DNA from: Rhodothermales bacterium
Lineage (GTDB): Bacteria > Bacteroidota > Rhodothermia > Rhodothermales > VXPQ01
Assembly (NCBI GenBank): GCA_951812345.1
Contig: OX638295.1
Location: 2,142,965-2,206,964 of the forward strand
DNA: 64,000 nt
Direction: 5' to 3'
In this document: positions 14,102 to 20,637 of the stretch, piece after piece
How the letters are laid out: the number at the start of each line of letters is the position of its first letter
How positions within the stretch are numbered: the stretch's first letter is position 1
Made by a program: the position numbers and the translations under genes
Notes under the pieces: generated by a model
The model's input: only the letters and a program-made list of their open reading frames with translations
What the model was told of the DNA's origin: nothing
Database searches by the model: none

Positions 14102-16264
14102 TCAGCTCCCGACCAGCCGGAGCCGATCGAGCGGGATAAAATCCGGACGGAACGCCCCCTTCTCGATGCGATATACGCGGTCTGCCCGAGGCAGGAACGC
14201 AGCCGAATGCGAGGCCACGATCGCAATGCAATCCTTGCGATAGCGATCCAGCACATCCATTGCCTGCTGCGCCGTAGTACTGTCCATAGCGGAAGTGGGC
14301 TCGTCGAGAAGGAGCACCTGCGGATCACGCACCAGTGCCCGGGCCAGGCCTACCAGTTGCTGCTGTCCCCCCGAAAGCGCAGCGCCCCCCTCTCCCACAA
14401 GGGTCAGGTACCCACCGGGCAACATCTCGAAAAAATCGGAAAGTCCGAGTTCCTCGCATTTCCGTATGGTTTCCTGCGGATCGAGCGTAAGACCCAGCCG
14501 GATGTTGTCGACCAGCGTGCCGCTGAATATCCGAACGTTCTGAGGCACGACGCCAAGAATGTCCCGCCATCCGGTCACGGAAAATTCGTTCCAGTCGCAC
14601 CCGTTAATCAGTACCTCCCCCGACTCGGGCACAACAAGGCGCTGTAACATCCGCAACAGCGAAGATTTGCCGGATCCCGTGCTCCCGACAATCAACATGA
14701 GTTCGCCGCAGTGGCAGGTAAATGAAACATCGCCGAGCAAGGTCAACTGGCCCGGGTAACTGAAGGTGACGCGGCGCGCCTCGAGACGCCGTGCAAAATC
14801 GATAGGACTCTTTGCAGCATCTTCTTCCGTGTCGTATTCGGGACTGAGCGAGGTAAACTGATAGATTCTGTCGAAAGCCACCTTCGCCTCCTGAAAATCC
14901 ACATTCGCCGTAGCCAGCGCCTGGGCGCTCGGTACGATCATCCCGATCATTTGCAGGATGGCGATCATCGCCCCGATGCCCATGGCGTCGCCGAGCACAA
15001 GTATCGACGCCCACGCAAGTACGCCGGTAACAATCATAGCGCCGGCAATCGCCAGCACGCCGCCGAACCGTACCGCAACCCGGCCCAGGCGGAAAATCTC
15101 CTCCTGCAGATGGGTGTATGTATCGCGCATCAGCCGGGTAAACACCGATTCTGCATTGGCCGACTTGATCGCCTCGATGCCCCGAATGGCTTCGACGTAC
15201 CCACTCTTGTTCAACGAATGCGCCGTCATGATGCGCTGCTGTCCCTTCACGATAGGCTGGTGGAAATGCCGGGACACCAGAATGAAAAACAGGAGAGCAA
15301 GAGCTACCGCCCCGGCAATCTCCGGGCTGTGGGCATAGATGAACGCCATCCCTGAAACGAGGACAAGCGCCTCGATGACTACGCCGCCCAGCACATGCGT
15401 TACGGTTTGCTGAAGCCGTTCGGTGTCGTTCAGGCGAGCAATCAGGTCTCCCGTCTTCCGGGAGCTGAAAAAAGCATAAGGGAGACGAAGCAGATCGTCG
15501 AGAAATCGCTTCGTGATGCGGTTATTGAACGCGCGGGCCTGCCCCAGAAGAAGCAGTTGCCGGACAATGCCCATACCCGCCTGCGCCGCCAGCACCAGAA
15601 AAAGAAGCACCAGCCCGGCAGCAAGCTGCTCTACGTTCCGTTGCGGGAGTATGTCGTCAATAAGCGCCTTGGAAAAGAGGGCCATTGCGAGACCGAACGC
15701 GGACACGAGGCCGCCTAGTGCAACCGACAGGACAAGAGGGCGCATATCTTCCCGGGTGGCGTCCCGCAACCATCTCCGCCGGGCCGACGCCCGACGTTTT
15801 CGAGTCACGAATCCGCTATCCGGACGCAAGAGCAGAAGCGCCCTGCTCTCCCATACTTTTTCAAGTTCCTCCGCATCATACCAGACAAGGCCGGCCTCCG
15901 GATCGCCAATCAGAAACCTGTCTCCGAAACACCCGAAGAGAACGATGTAATGCTGGCGGATGCCGTTCAGTACTACATGAAGCACCGCCGGCGTCTCCAA
16001 CCCGGCAAGGTCGTCCATCCCTGCCTCATAAGGGTCCGATCTAAGACCGATTTTGCCCGCCGCCTGGTGCAGCCCCAGCAGCGTCGTACCCTGCGACATG
16101 GTGCCGCTGAGGCTACGCAGCCTTTCCATGGTCTCCTCGCCCCCGAAAAAACGGACGACCCACGCAAGGCAGGCCACCCCGCAATCGGACTGATCGAGTT
16201 GCCGGACGACCGACTTCGCCACCCGCTTTGTTGTTTGCCCGCGGAGCTTGTCGTTTCGAATCAT
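14102..16264 (-). CDS. Peptidase C39-containing ABC exporter (bacteriocin-type PCAT)
   Basis: 720 residues. The N-terminal C39 peptidase domain (1-140) has catalytic Cys28 in QSDCGVACLAW, His105 in RQHYIVLFG and Asp121 in IGDPEAG. The family cuts precursors after a double glycine while exporting them. Six membrane helices follow (about 175-455), then an ABC ATPase with Walker A GSTGSGKS (527-534), signature LSGGQQQ (630-636), Walker B LLLDEP (651-656) and H-loop His686. All key residues are intact. The start codon overlaps the stop of the thioredoxin-like gene (ATGA), so the two are translationally coupled. It is the last gene of the operon that holds three double-glycine precursors. No HlyD-type adaptor gene is present in the window. 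Confidence 0.95.
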   Translation of the reverse strand: MIRNDKLRGQTTKRVAKSVVRQLDQSDCGVACLAWVVRFFGGEETMERLRSLSGTMSQGTTLLGLHQAAGKIGLRSDPYEAGMDDLAGLETPAVLHVVLNGIRQHYIVLFGCFGDRFLIGDPEAGLVWYDAEELEKVWESRALLLLRPDSGFVTRKRRASARRRWLRDATREDMRPLVLSVALGGLVSAFGLAMALFSKALIDDILPQRNVEQLAAGLVLLFLVLAAQAGMGIVRQLLLLGQARAFNNRITKRFLDDLLRLPYAFFSSRKTGDLIARLNDTERLQQTVTHVLGGVVIEALVLVSGMAFIYAHSPEIAGAVALALLFFILVSRHFHQPIVKGQQRIMTAHSLNKSGYVEAIRGIEAIKSANAESVFTRLMRDTYTHLQEEIFRLGRVAVRFGGVLAIAGAMIVTGVLAWASILVLGDAMGIGAMIAILQMIGMIVPSAQALATANVDFQEAKVAFDRIYQFTSLSPEYDTEEDAAKSPIDFARRLEARRVTFSYPGQLTLLGDVSFTCHCGELMLIVGSTGSGKSSLLRMLQRLVVPESGEVLINGCDWNEFSVTGWRDILGVVPQNVRIFSGTLVDNIRLGLTLDPQETIRKCEELGLSDFFEMLPGGYLTLVGEGGAALSGGQQQLVGLARALVRDPQVLLLDEPTSAMDSTTAQQAMDVLDRYRKDCIAIVASHSAAFLPRADRVYRIEKGAFRPDFIPLDRLRLVGS

Positions 16265-16788
16265 GGTCTGTCTTCTCCTGCAGCGGCCTCGACAATTTTC
16301 CCGATCGCCTCAAGCCCCTCGAACGATTTGCGCAGACGCCCATCCGGACCATATACGAGGGTCGTCGGCACCACATGGATGCCCAGGTTTTCGCCAAGCA
16401 CCGAGACCGTATCCCGGAGCACATGGAACCAGGGCACGGTATCGATTTCCGTTTCCCGGGCAAACGCCCGTACCGCGTCGCGATCCTCCCAGGCGACGAA
16501 AAACACGTCGTACTCTTTCAGAAGCATTGCCTTTTCCCGAAACGCCTGCAGTTCTGCGCGACAGTACTCGCAAGTGGTCGTAAAAAATACAAGCACAACG
16601 CTCTGCCCCCCGGCGGAACGCAAAGGAACCGATATCCCCTCGAGATTCACGAGATGCGCTTCCGGAAGCTGGAGACGGCGCTCTGCCGCTTCGAGACGCT
16701 CGTTTCGTATATCCCGGGCCTGCACCCCAAGCCATGCTACGACGCCAAGCATGGCCGCTATAGCCAAAACGGCTCCGATCTTCTTCAT
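16261..16788 (-). CDS. Thioredoxin-fold (TlpA/AhpC-TSA-like) membrane-anchored protein
   Basis: 175 residues with one N-terminal membrane anchor (residues 4-22), so the domain faces the periplasm. The thioredoxin fold shows VVLVFFTTTCEYCRAEL with a CxxC site (CEYC) and the cis-proline region HVVPTTLVYGPDGRL. TlpA-like proteins reduce or form disulfides outside the cytoplasm. The gene is preceded by a GAGGGT ribosome binding site that overlaps the end of the membrane-protein gene, and its stop overlaps the exporter start. Two of the precursor peptides in this operon carry four cysteines each, so a role in their disulfide status is a reasonable inference. Confidence 0.88.
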   Translation of the reverse strand: MKKIGAVLAIAAMLGVVAWLGVQARDIRNERLEAAERRLQLPEAHLVNLEGISVPLRSAGGQSVVLVFFTTTCEYCRAELQAFREKAMLLKEYDVFFVAWEDRDAVRAFARETEIDTVPWFHVLRDTVSVLGENLGIHVVPTTLVYGPDGRLRKSFEGLEAIGKIVEAAAGEDRP

Positions 16789-16800
16789 GGCGTGCTACCC

Positions 16801-17475
16801 TCAAAAAACGGAGAGAAGAAAAAACGTGACGCCGGCAACAAGCAACGCCGTGCCGCCACCGTACGAGACCGCAACCAGTAGTGTGACGTTGTGCGGAGGC
16901 CTCTCGGTTACAAGGCGAATAGTGTATACCAGGGCCGCCGCGTAGGCAACCTCAAACAGGTTCAGGGTCCGCAAGAGATAGACGAGCCACATGTTTTCCT
17001 GGTTTATTTCCACGAGATTCACGGCGGAAAGCGGATAAAAAAACGTGCCCGTACCCGGAAAAACGAGTGTCCAGGCAAGATGTGTGAGCGCAGCCAGAAT
17101 CCATACGCTTTCAGCCAGCGAGGCGACATGGAAAAGACTGGAAAAGCGCACGTTCCATGTTATGATCGCAGCGCCCAGAGCAAGGCACACTGTCGTAAAA
17201 CCGATCTTCATGAACACGTACAAAGGCGTAAACGCATACCCTACCCACCGGAGCGGCCCGCTTGCCCGGGGAAGTTGCGGAATACCCTCTTCGGCAGGCG
17301 GCGTCTGCACGTATTCGTCGCTTATCCAATTGATGACAGCATACAGCAGCGCATAGCAGAACGGAAGTAACCAGAACAACCATTTGTCGGGACTTTTTTT
17401 CGACGTGTCGCCGGCGGGCGCGGCCCACCCGCTGGAAGACAGCGCAGCACGCGCCGTATCGTTTCCGAATGTCAT
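16801..17475 (-). CDS. Multi-pass membrane protein in peptide operon (Yip1-like; immunity candidate)
   Basis: 224 residues from the ATG at 17475, preceded by GGAAAGGAATC; longer upstream frames lack a ribosome binding site and cross the hairpin region. A polar N-terminus of about 30 residues is followed by five or six hydrophobic segments (WLFWLLPFCYALLYAVINW, PLYVFMKIGFTTVCLALGAA, VWILAALTHLAWTLVF, MWLVYLLRTLNLFEVAYAAA, VTLLVAVSYGGGTALLV). The arrangement recalls the Yip1 superfamily, but I cannot confirm membership. Its place between the precursors and the export genes suggests self-protection or a processing-complex subunit. No catalytic motif is visible. Confidence 0.75.
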   Translation of the reverse strand: MTFGNDTARAALSSSGWAAPAGDTSKKSPDKWLFWLLPFCYALLYAVINWISDEYVQTPPAEEGIPQLPRASGPLRWVGYAFTPLYVFMKIGFTTVCLALGAAIITWNVRFSSLFHVASLAESVWILAALTHLAWTLVFPGTGTFFYPLSAVNLVEINQENMWLVYLLRTLNLFEVAYAAALVYTIRLVTERPPHNVTLLVAVSYGGGTALLVAGVTFFLLSVF

Positions 17476-17580
17476 CGCAGATTCCTTTCCTGTATCTCGT
17501 GGGACATATCCGCCGACGGCCCCTTTCCTTGTCGGCGCATTCGAAGGATATTTTGCAAAGGGAAAAAGACGATAAGGAAC

Positions 17581-17613
17581 GTGGGGGCGGATACGGAACG
17601 TACCCGCCCCCAC
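17581..17613 (-). terminator. Strong intercistronic hairpin after the precursor genes
   Basis: Perfect 10-base arms GTGGGGGCGG (17581-17590) and CCGCCCCCAC (17604-17613). The inner bases TACG/CGTA also pair, giving a stem of about 15 pairs with a 3-base loop in the minus-strand transcript. It starts 7 bases past the stop of precursor C. A loose T-rich stretch (CTTATCGTCTTTTT) follows about 10 bases later. A second, weaker inverted repeat (CGCCGAC/GTCGGCG, 17511-17537) lies further downstream. Likely a partial terminator or a 3' stabiliser that favours precursor mRNA over export-gene mRNA. Confidence 0.6.
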
Positions 17614-17619
17614 CGCTCG

Positions 17620-17793
17620 TCAACTTCCGCAGAGCGCATAGCACAGGGCATTCCCTGCCAACCCCATCGGATTGAAGGGACCGGGACCGGAGCATAGCCA
17701 CCAGGCCAGAAGGTAATGCGGGGATTTCCCGTCGCACGGGGTGTTGGCGCCGCCAGACACGGCAGCCATTCGGATAGCGTCAAGGATTTTCAT
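17620..17793 (-). CDS. Double-glycine-leader precursor peptide C (4 Cys)
   Basis: 57 residues, start fixed by the AAAGGTGA ribosome binding site about 7 bases upstream of the ATG. The leader MKILDAIRMAAVSGG ends in Gly-Gly, the cleavage signal for C39 exporters such as the one in this operon. The 42-residue core is rich in Gly, Trp and Pro (LLAWWLCSGPGPF) and has Cys at 20, 34, 51 and 55, ending CYALCGS. The CxxxC pair near the end also occurs in precursor A. It lies 41 bases downstream of precursor B and just before the strong hairpin. Ser/Thr and Cys in the core could be modified by the glycosyltransferase of the operon; the site is unknown. A longer frame over the same bases (17472-17783) has no start signal and reads through the hairpin. 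Confidence 0.85.
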   Translation of the reverse strand: MKILDAIRMAAVSGGANTPCDGKSPHYLLAWWLCSGPGPFNPMGLAGNALCYALCGS

Positions 17794-17834: not shown

Positions 17835-18059
17835 TCAACTGGTGGAAAGCCTGCATATCACAAGCCCTCCTATGGCGCCGGCGGCGTAGCCGATAGCCGC
17901 AGCCACCGTGGCCGCCCCTCCGGTGGCGACCCCGAGCGCAATCGCTCCGACAATCGAACCGCCCACCATCGACGACGGGATCGTGACACCAAGAGTCCGC
18001 CAGATGTTTTTGCAGTTGCCTCCGGCAAGCTGCATTTGTTCAAGCGTCAATGTTTTCAT
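17835..18059 (-). CDS. Double-glycine-leader precursor peptide B (class II bacteriocin-like, glycine-rich)
   Basis: 74 residues from the ATG at 18059, which has the ribosome binding site AAGGTGA at the same spacing as the other precursor C. Leader MKTLTLEQMQLAGG is a textbook double-glycine type. The 60-residue core is strongly hydrophobic and Gly/Ala-rich with repeated GxxxG-type spacings (SIVGAIALGVATGGAA, AIGYAAGAIGG) and Cys16 and Cys69 near its two ends. This resembles pore-forming class II bacteriocins. The frame is open far upstream of the ATG, but no leader-like start exists there. It lies 64 bases after the glycosyltransferase gene. Confidence 0.87.
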   Translation of the reverse strand: MKTLTLEQMQLAGGNCKNIWRTLGVTIPSSMVGGSIVGAIALGVATGGAATVAAAIGYAAGAIGGLVICRLSTS

Positions 18060-18123: not shown

Positions 18124-20316
18124 CTACGCGACGCCGACTTCGTCCATGCGCACCTGTCTGGCGCACAGCACGATGTCGGACCAGTGTTGCACGAGTGTTC
18201 CATATGCGCCGACCAGATCGCGCAAGCGTGATCTGCGTTCGGCTGCATTGCCGGCCAGATCGACCGGCGCATTGCATTCCTGCTGCGTAACAAACCGCTC
18301 CAGCGCATCTGCGAGGTGCCCCATATCCGCCCGCATGGAGGGAATCGATCCGGCAGGACCCGATAACGCATGTTCGATGTGCAGCATCAGCATCCCTAAG
18401 GATCGCTCTACGGCAGCCCTGCACGCAAGATCGAAGTCGGGCTGGTCAAGCGATCCATACGCCGCCAGACGATCCCCAAGGTCGCACAGTCTGCGAGGGA
18501 ACGGATCGAGCTGAGAGGCCCCCCATTCCGCGATCAGGGCCGTAAGGATGTCGTTGGTCCTGAAACCATCGAACACGATCTCCGCCGGAAACGGCGCACG
18601 CTCCTGCGGGGGACGATGCCCGATGGCATACCCCTCGCAAAATCCCCGAAGCAGCAGAGGCAAGACGGCTTCCAGCGTTGCGCTGAATACGCCGTCCTCA
18701 TTGCGCCCCGCGGGCATGAATGGGGGAAGCGTTTGCCGGTTGTCGATGCCCACATTCATGCCGAGACAGAACAACCCGTTGCCGATGGTACGGCGCGTAA
18801 CGGTCCGCCCCACCTCACGGGTACGCATGCCTTCCGAATATCCGCACCGGACCAGCCTGCCAAGGGAAGCCCCTTCCAGAAATAGCCTCGACACATTCGA
18901 CGATGTACCGGCATCCCCTGTATGGCCGATGAAGGTAAGCCCAATCCGGGCATCCGACAGACGCTGCAACAGGTGCGGCTGCAAGTCATCTACGTCAATA
19001 TCTTCCCGGCCGGATTCCTCCAGCAGGTGCGCAACCGGACACCCAAGGAGCGTTTCGTGCATTGCGACAAAGTCCGCCCCCTCTGCCGGCTCCCAATCGC
19101 AAGCGCCGAACCAGTACTCGTTGGGATCGGCTTGCGAAGAAAGAGCTATACCGGATCGGGTATCCGGCGCCTCAAACAGAGGCAGCCTCGTGTCGTCATC
19201 AACATGCACGGAAAGCTCGCCCGCGGTAGCCAGCAAAAGCGCATTCCGGTTCGCCCCGTAATTCGTGTCGCACGTTTCGTGCCCATAGAGTGCGAATTGC
19301 AATACGTCGGGACCGCAACCGGTCTCGTCCGCCAGCGTGCGGACCAGGTTTGCCCGCCAGTTCTCATCGAGATACTCCACCTCGATATCGATATCTTCTC
19401 GCAAGACATCGAGGGCCGACGCGAGCCGCGCCTGATCCGGTGCGGAAGAGCTATCTGCAACAACGAATCGTACCCGGCGTCCGTGCATGGACGCATTCGC
19501 ATGATAGGATCGAAGCGCTGCAAGCACACTGCCTGCACGATTGCGGGTCGGGATGCCGATCGCCGATATCCCGTCGCCCCCGTCGGGAAAGGCTGCGCTG
19601 TCCGTCCCATAACACATCACCTCTTCCCGGACAGCGGTTTCCGCGGTCAGCATGCCGTCGTCGATCCACCTGCGCCACGTTCCGGAATCCACCACACCCG
19701 CAACCCCGCCGGCATAGTCCCGGCGTATCCGACTCTCGTGGGCGGCAATGCTCCGAAACCGGTCCGCCTTGAAAAGTTGCTGCGCTTCCGTTGCGAGCAA
19801 AATTCTGGCCGCGCCCGTACGTCGCGAACGAATCAGGACACGATCACTTCCCAGGCCCACCGCTTCCACATCAAAACAACGATACCGCTCCGCGTCGACG
19901 CGCACGGTAGCGCGTTTCGTCACACCGTCGGCATACAACAACATGCGAGACATCCACCAGCGAGCAAGGTCCGGCGGCCCAACCCGCCGGACACCTCGCT
20001 TCGGATCTCCGATAACGTATTTCCCGGACCGGAAACCGTAGTACACCACAAACCTGCCCTTCCTCTCCTCGTCTTCCCAATGCAGGATTACCGGCGCCTC
20101 AAGGGTTCTCAGGCCGGACAGGGTTCCTTCGTACCCTCGCACATCGAGCCCGGCGTCCGAAAGCGCCTCGTACAGATCCAGCATGGATTCGCCGCATACA
20201 TGGATTCCATCGCTATCGACGCCGTGATGATTTAGCAGCGCCGCCACACACGCTCTTTCTCCCGATGGTTCTTCCATGGCGCGAGCAAATGCCCGCTTGA
20301 CACGTTGCGGATCCAT
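18124..20316 (-). CDS. Fusion of degenerate C39-like leader-binding domain and GT2-type glycosyltransferase
   Basis: 730 residues. Residues 15-128 align by eye with the C39 domain of the neighbouring exporter (RACVAALLNHHG with DCGVACLAWVVRFFG; RFVVYYGFRSGKYVIGDP with HYIVLFGCFGDRFLIGDP). The catalytic Cys is Gly19 and the catalytic His is Arg88, while Asp104 remains, so it cannot act as a cysteine peptidase. Residues about 130-245 are a linker of unclear fold. From 249 a GT-A pattern starts: GIPTRNRAGSVLAALRSY, VRFVVADSSS, GANRNALLLATAG, then VDDDTR (373-375), a DxD-type metal/nucleotide-sugar motif. The remaining 300 residues are mostly helical with no motif I know. I infer it docks the double-glycine leaders and glycosylates the cores, as GT2-type SunS enzymes do for glycocins. 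Donor sugar and acceptor residue are unknown. Confidence 0.7.
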   Translation of the reverse strand: MDPQRVKRAFARAMEEPSGERACVAALLNHHGVDSDGIHVCGESMLDLYEALSDAGLDVRGYEGTLSGLRTLEAPVILHWEDEERKGRFVVYYGFRSGKYVIGDPKRGVRRVGPPDLARWWMSRMLLYADGVTKRATVRVDAERYRCFDVEAVGLGSDRVLIRSRRTGAARILLATEAQQLFKADRFRSIAAHESRIRRDYAGGVAGVVDSGTWRRWIDDGMLTAETAVREEVMCYGTDSAAFPDGGDGISAIGIPTRNRAGSVLAALRSYHANASMHGRRVRFVVADSSSAPDQARLASALDVLREDIDIEVEYLDENWRANLVRTLADETGCGPDVLQFALYGHETCDTNYGANRNALLLATAGELSVHVDDDTRLPLFEAPDTRSGIALSSQADPNEYWFGACDWEPAEGADFVAMHETLLGCPVAHLLEESGREDIDVDDLQPHLLQRLSDARIGLTFIGHTGDAGTSSNVSRLFLEGASLGRLVRCGYSEGMRTREVGRTVTRRTIGNGLFCLGMNVGIDNRQTLPPFMPAGRNEDGVFSATLEAVLPLLLRGFCEGYAIGHRPPQERAPFPAEIVFDGFRTNDILTALIAEWGASQLDPFPRRLCDLGDRLAAYGSLDQPDFDLACRAAVERSLGMLMLHIEHALSGPAGSIPSMRADMGHLADALERFVTQQECNAPVDLAGNAAERRSRLRDLVGAYGTLVQHWSDIVLCARQVRMDEVGVA

Positions 20317-20448: not shown

Positions 20449-20637
20449 CTAACTGCAGAATCTCCGGCAGGCGCTGCCGTACCGGCGGGCAGTGCCCACG
20501 ACACCTCCCCAACCCGTCCGGCTGAACCCAACTACAGCGCCGACCACTGTGCAGCCGGTCACGATGTACGACGTCAGCCTGCCGCAACGCGACGTGCCAC
20601 CCATGTGCTGCATTTCCTCCAATGAAAGAGTCCTCAT
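20449..20637 (-). CDS. Double-glycine-leader precursor peptide A (4 Cys)
   Basis: 62 residues, first gene of the operon, with a strong GAGGTGG ribosome binding site 5-6 bases before the ATG. Leader MRTLSLEEMQHMGG ends in Gly-Gly and is clearly related to that of precursor B (T-L-x-L-E-x-M-Q). The 48-residue core is cationic and glycine-rich (TVVGAVVGFSRTGWGG, TARRYGSACRRFCS) with Cys at 18, 29, 57 and 61; the last two form the same C-x3-C spacing as in precursor C. The glycosyltransferase gene starts 132 bases downstream. No immunity gene is seen directly next to it. Confidence 0.85.
   Translation of the reverse strand: MRTLSLEEMQHMGGTSRCGRLTSYIVTGCTVVGAVVGFSRTGWGGVVGTARRYGSACRRFCS

Follow-up and report, generated by a model that had tools for sequence, protein, structure and literature searches.

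As far as is known, leaders in peptide tailoring are mostly recognized through RRE domains or by the enzymes themselves. A locus from a Rhodothermales bacterium raises the question of whether a leader peptidase domain without its catalytic residues can serve the same end when it is fused to a glycosyltransferase (GT). The locus lies in a stretch of 64,000 nucleotides, called the window here. A single open reading frame fills positions 20316 to 18124 of the minus strand (18124..20316) and encodes a protein of 730 aa. A first-pass annotation of the DNA had placed a real ORF at these positions, leaving out its strand, and had described a dead C39-like domain that docks leaders for a fused sugar transferase, an interpretation that is partly supported by the present analysis. 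The ORF, a PF03412 match above cut-off and AlphaFold2 (AF2) models together delineate three domains. Residues 1-134 (19915..20316, minus) form the C39-like domain, as assigned by Pfam, alignment, AF2, Foldseek and VIA-align; residues about 143-237 (19606..19890, minus) form an RRE-like domain, assigned only by the predicted order of secondary structure (three strands, three helices, wing) in DSSP of the AF2 model; residues 246-730 (18127..19581, minus) form a GT-A domain with a helical C terminus, assigned by alignment, AF2 and fold searches. The earlier annotation mentions neither the RRE-like middle domain nor the likeness of the enzyme part's fold to GT75. The C39 domain and the remainder were modelled separately, because the middle domain was misaligned when full-length proteins and exporter C39 domains were aligned together.

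The Peptidase_C39 profile PF03412 matches residues 22-130 in the Pfam scan, scoring 44.9 bits (E 1.3e-11), twice the cut-off of 22; the protein scores 48.6 bits in the genome search, and C39-bearing relatives score 86.6 and 38.8 bits. Using 20 aligned relatives, residues 1-134 were modelled by AF2 with a pLDDT of 90.3. Foldseek matched this model to ComA (5xe9, E 9e-7), PCAT1 and LahT (6mpz). VIA-align gave a Z of 17.8 and an rmsd of 1.8 Å over 122 residues against ComA and a Z of 16.9 against leader-bound LahT, and superposition on the ComA, PCAT1 and LahT peptidases falls at a Z of about 17 and an rmsd of 1.8-2.2 Å. These results bear out the earlier claim that the first ~128 residues follow the C39 fold, and a check of residues 1-130 for a different fold returned C39 as the predicted fold of residues 1-134.

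The active-site columns hold Gln, Cys, His and Asp in 17/17 exporter C39 domains aligned, and Ala, Gly, Arg and Asp in the window protein and its orthologues. Gly19 (codon gga, 20262-20260, minus) stands in place of the catalytic Cys and Arg88 (20055-20053, minus) in place of His, while Asp104 (20007-20005, minus) is kept, just as the earlier annotation had read them by eye; in addition, Ala13 replaces the oxyanion Gln. The catalytic Cys-His-Asp set of Peptidase C39 is thus reduced to its Asp, and no active-site Cys is evident elsewhere in the domain on sequence. L029, a distant C39-bearing relative of 807 aa in the related genome G243, has Gln, Ser, Glu and Asp in these columns, with its His column displaced by an alignment gap (RAEY versus RQHY). 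Because the catalytic residues are replaced in both fusion types, the window domain would not be expected to act as a cysteine protease, and the catalytic loss took different forms in the window type and the G243 type. A sequencing or frame error behind the change from Cys to Gly was considered and rejected, as the related genomes G240 and G241 carry the same residues, the codons are unambiguous and the frame is open and conserved. An active protease with an alternative nucleophile was likewise rejected on sequence: Cys23 corresponds to a second Cys that almost every active exporter has, and Cys41 is not conserved, with Ser in its place in G241 and G240. Compared with the C39 domains of PCAT exporters (ComA, LahT, PCAT1), the window domain shares the fold, the triad Asp and hydrophobic or aromatic leader-groove positions, but it has lost Cys, His and the oxyanion Gln, is shorter between Gly32 and Gly42, and has a glycosyltransferase as its partner instead of an ABC transporter.

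The gene belongs to a compact minus-strand operon in the order peptide A, the 730-aa protein, peptides B and C, a membrane protein, a TlpA/ResA-like protein and a C39-ABC exporter. Peptide A (20449..20637, minus) is precursor-like, with the leader MRTLSLEEMQHMGG and a 4-Cys core, and has tblastn matches in the loci L030, L040 and L041. Using tblastn and sequence comparison, two further precursor-like peptides were identified: peptide B (17835..18059, minus), with the leader MKTLTLEQMQLAGG, a 2-Cys Gly/Ala-rich core and a weak resemblance to MccV that falls under the cut-off (E 0.022), and peptide C (17620..17793, minus), with the leader MKILDAIRMAAVSGG and a 4-Cys core. All three were recovered in related genomes by tblastn at E 1e-11 or better. 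In the window, leaders A (20637-20596) and B (18059-18018) carry M and L at -6 and -11, respectively, and those of the orthologues in G240 and G241 (L040, L041) can be read as -7/-12, a one-residue shift of spacing within the genus. The membrane protein (16801..17613, minus) is up to 270 aa long with an uncertain true start; it has no family match, is kept in the operon, and is possibly an immunity protein. The TlpA/ResA-like thiol-disulfide oxidoreductase (16261..16788, minus) matches AhpC-TSA at 46.5 bits, and the exporter (14102..16264, minus), a PCAT by Pfam and alignment, has intact Gln22, Cys28, His105 and Asp121.

The operon is conserved in the genus: the same order is found in G240 and G241, and in G242 up to the contig end. 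The order is also kept in G243, although this genome lacks peptide B and has a broken copy of the fused protein. The C39-GT orthologue in that genome (L030, 7307-8434) has residues 56-208 deleted and its C terminus lost, with A, C and the exporter intact. Peptide B may be the substrate of the C39-GT protein, or a single deletion may have taken both.

Glycocin loci contain precursor, GT, PCAT and thioredoxin-like genes (PMC12457901), and this set, with GG-leader precursors and a C39-ABC exporter, occurs together at the window locus. The clustering of Cys-bearing precursors, a GT, a C39-ABC exporter and a thioredoxin-like protein is shared with the loci of sublancin, glycocin F and thermoglycocin; in contrast to these, the window GT brought up no solved glycocin GT among the sequence-search matches listed, carries N-terminal C39-like and RRE-like domains, and has its relatives in Rhodothermales. 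On balance, the probable reading is that of a glycocin-type locus in which a dead C39 domain serves the glycosyltransferase for the recruitment of GG leaders. The 730-aa protein would then be the tailoring glycosyltransferase of the locus, with the dead C39 domain binding the GG leaders of precursors A, B and C without cleavage, in the same hydrophobic groove that leaders occupy in the exporter's active C39 domain. The GT-A domain would next put a sugar on the core (Ser, Thr or Cys), and the exporter would afterwards cut the same leader and export the peptide, with the TlpA-like protein aiding disulfide formation. Because one leader helix cannot fill both grooves, the dead and active domains would compete, and binding to the transferase would shield the leader from early cleavage, so that modification would come before export. 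More tentatively, and with somewhat less than even odds, a leader peptidase domain may have become, perhaps in two independent events, a domain that recognizes leaders without cleaving them and is functionally equivalent to an RRE, with competition against the exporter C39 enforcing modification before cleavage and export.

In PCAT1, A55 and I59 form a hydrophobic knot that holds leader residues L-7 and L-12, and G135 touches leader position -4 (PMC6959990). Mapped through alignment, not superposition, A55 and I59 correspond to M45 and Y49 in the window domain and to L and Y in G243; most local exporters have L, with Y, H or F. G135 aligns with R124 of the window domain, and Arg is also found in its own exporter (W-M-S-R, W-E-S-R). 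In the positions equivalent to A55, I59 and G135, L, H and R are found in the local exporter, compared with L, Y/F and K in most of the class's exporters. These residues suggest that GG leaders could dock on the dead C39 domain. Two features of the window itself count against such docking. About 10 residues between Gly32 and Gly42, part of the groove helix in exporters, are missing in the window domain and present in G243, so that the shortening affects the groove edge in the window type and not in G243. In leaders A and B, moreover, the spacing is a residue shorter than the canonical L-12/M-7.

A third point against docking comes by analogy from HlyB, whose C39-like domain (CLD) binds its cargo on the face opposite the leader groove (PMC8277102), which suggests that a dead C39 domain need not bind a leader. 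The CLD is likewise a catalytically dead C39 fold that holds substrate (VIA-align Z 13.6), but it belongs to an ABC transporter, retains its His and has RTX cargo, whereas the window domain sits on a GT-A domain, has His replaced by Arg88 as well as Cys replaced, and has GG-leader peptides as neighbors. The RRE-like middle domain may be the true leader binder, with the dead C39 domain doing something else, such as docking the transferase on the exporter or chaperoning unfolded precursor in the manner of the HlyB CLD. The AF2 model of the middle domain, mostly of good confidence, has three strands followed by three helices, plus a wing strand. DSSP places the strands at 21-25, 30-35 and 41-45 and the helices at 46-53, 61-71 and 82-90, after a short extra first strand at 16-18 (model numbering equals protein numbering minus 129). 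RREs are strictly defined by this order of three strands and then three helices, and RRE-glycosyltransferase fusions have been reported (PMC12710340). Most GT relatives have the middle domain, C39-less ones included.

Set against this, the likeness to PqqD-like RREs is one of predicted element order, without detectable sequence or profile similarity. The middle domain has no Pfam match, its comparison by hhalign with 21 PqqD domains of the class (PF05402) gave no signal (probability 4%), RREs being divergent in sequence, and sequence searches returned no convincing PDB relative. The C39-less relatives, furthermore, mostly have no C39 exporter nearby, so that their middle domain may have another ligand, and the C39 domain retains its leader-groove positions. 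The modelled middle domain is best described as a candidate second leader-binding domain and not as a proven RRE; that it binds the leader in place of the C39 domain seems unlikely. The relative at L035 has its middle domain encoded in an ORF of its own. The genome G151 contains about a dozen PqqD-like matches, most of them in open frames of ~160-280 aa and many clustered on contigs C118 and C181.

For the enzyme part, the AF2 model and fold searches identify residues 246-730 as a GT-A fold. Its DDD motif at residues 373-375 (19200-19192, minus), placed there by the earlier annotation as well, is invariant in the family alignment. The same annotation had called the domain GT2-type, which holds for the N-terminal half, as the relative at L034 matches PF00535 above cut-off (28.3 versus 23.3 bits), and fails for the whole domain, whose nearest fold is GT75. 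A Pfam scan of the window protein itself gave no PF00535 match, and its match to DUF6271 is sub-threshold. Among the VIA-align matches listed, UAM2 has a Z of 21.6 (315 residues), MtdL about 19.9 and the next GT-A protein 15.2. The window protein thus combines the DDD motif with a GT75 fold and its C-terminal helix domain. R538-x-x-D541 and H567 are conserved, with H567 ending the strand just before the C-terminal helices. MtdL uses D109-D111, R257, D260 and H287 (PMC9937993), and we infer that DDD, R538-x-x-D541 and H567 correspond to D109-111, R257/D260 and H287, the spacing being similar. The kinship with GT75 is a structural one: the Pfam scan found no RGP domain (PF03214) in the window protein, and no RGP homologue above the cut-off for profile building was found in 296 genomes of the phylum. 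No solved glycocin GT appeared in the sequence searches or among the matches listed in the fold searches, and for VIA-align such a lack among listed matches excludes nothing.

As GT75 includes sugar-nucleotide mutases, the modelled likeness counts against the glycosyltransferase reading, and the enzyme part could be a GT75-like mutase or a self-glycosylating protein tethered to the peptide pathway. UAM2 and MtdL score well above other GT-A proteins among the matches listed, and DDD, R-x-x-D (538-541) and His 567 after the strand resemble the catalytic residues of MtdL. However, the window enzyme is 11-14% identical to GT75 proteins, has no PF03214 match, and lies in a peptide context rather than one of furanose synthesis. 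In relatives, the N-terminal half has a GT2 match, many polymerising and peptide GTs are among the Foldseek matches listed for the domain, and a mutase would have no evident need of a leader-binding domain. A mutase or self-glycosylating role is therefore quite improbable, and glycosylation of the peptides by the GT-A domain would be the role suggested, by analogy, by the operon context.

The GT family is rare: in a phylum-wide sample of 394 genomes, full-length matches all lie within the window's own class, and matches outside it are short and confined to the GT2-like N-terminal part. Most members carry the middle domain and no C39 domain. Several relatives adjoin 6-bladed beta-propeller lipoproteins, and one (L043) adjoins a C39-ABC/HlyD pair. 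The relative at L037 (7826-11503, minus) is fused behind a PF00550 phosphopantetheine carrier domain (65.5 bits), and its N-terminal stretch is FkbH-like by eye. Those at L034 (449-3881) and L035 (7255-10806) have a second C-terminal domain resembling another glycosyltransferase, and both neighbor a sulfotransferase-like gene (Sulfotransfer_4 tested in L034). Near-duplicate small proteins flank the C39-less relatives at L031 (3756-4160, 9089-9439) and L033 (2434-2751, 5566-5976); their start resembles a signal peptide, they contain Cys and a stretch rich in Ser/Thr/Pro, and they are possible acceptors. A plasmid search found no C39-GT fusion and one exporter C39 match only. A literature search found nothing on a C39-GT fusion or DUF6271, which is weak evidence of novelty, as coverage of subscription journals was thin.

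C39-bearing members are sparsely sampled, with six proteins in all, of which one is broken and another is truncated by the end of its contig. The GT tree rejects a single clade of C39-bearing proteins (p-AU 4.7e-5), while the C39 tree does not discriminate between a single origin and two (p-AU 0.32). Because of the rejection in the GT tree, the C39 domain was either gained twice, or gained once and then lost in relatives.

Between the window and G241 or G240, the dead C39 domain has a dN/dS of 0.21, close to the values for the GT part (0.17-0.19) and for the exporter's active C39 domain (0.17-0.18); for residues 209-436 of the broken G243 copy (L030), the value is higher, at 0.40. Purifying selection acts on the dead C39 domain about as it does on the rest of the protein. 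That the domain is left over from an accidental gene fusion, with no present role, would accord with its lost catalytic residues and with its sharing of just 14/23 exporter-conserved positions, but this selection disfavors it, as do the high model confidence of the domain and the placing of its bearers in two separate GT clades, and it is very improbable. Selection, groove positions kept despite the loss of Cys and His in the second fusion type, and an operon of GG leaders and a C39 exporter are evidence that the C39 domain is in use and not vestigial.

If leader recruitment through the dead C39 domain is true, a dead leader peptidase kept as a recognition handle would be a simple evolutionary route to leader dependence, and it would account for the way in which modification, cleavage and export can be kept in sequence. 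The C39-glycosyltransferase fusion is directly testable. A degenerate C39 domain fused to any enzyme would provide a new mark for genome mining, and glycocin-like peptides would be extended to Rhodothermales and to an unfamiliar glycosyltransferase fold.
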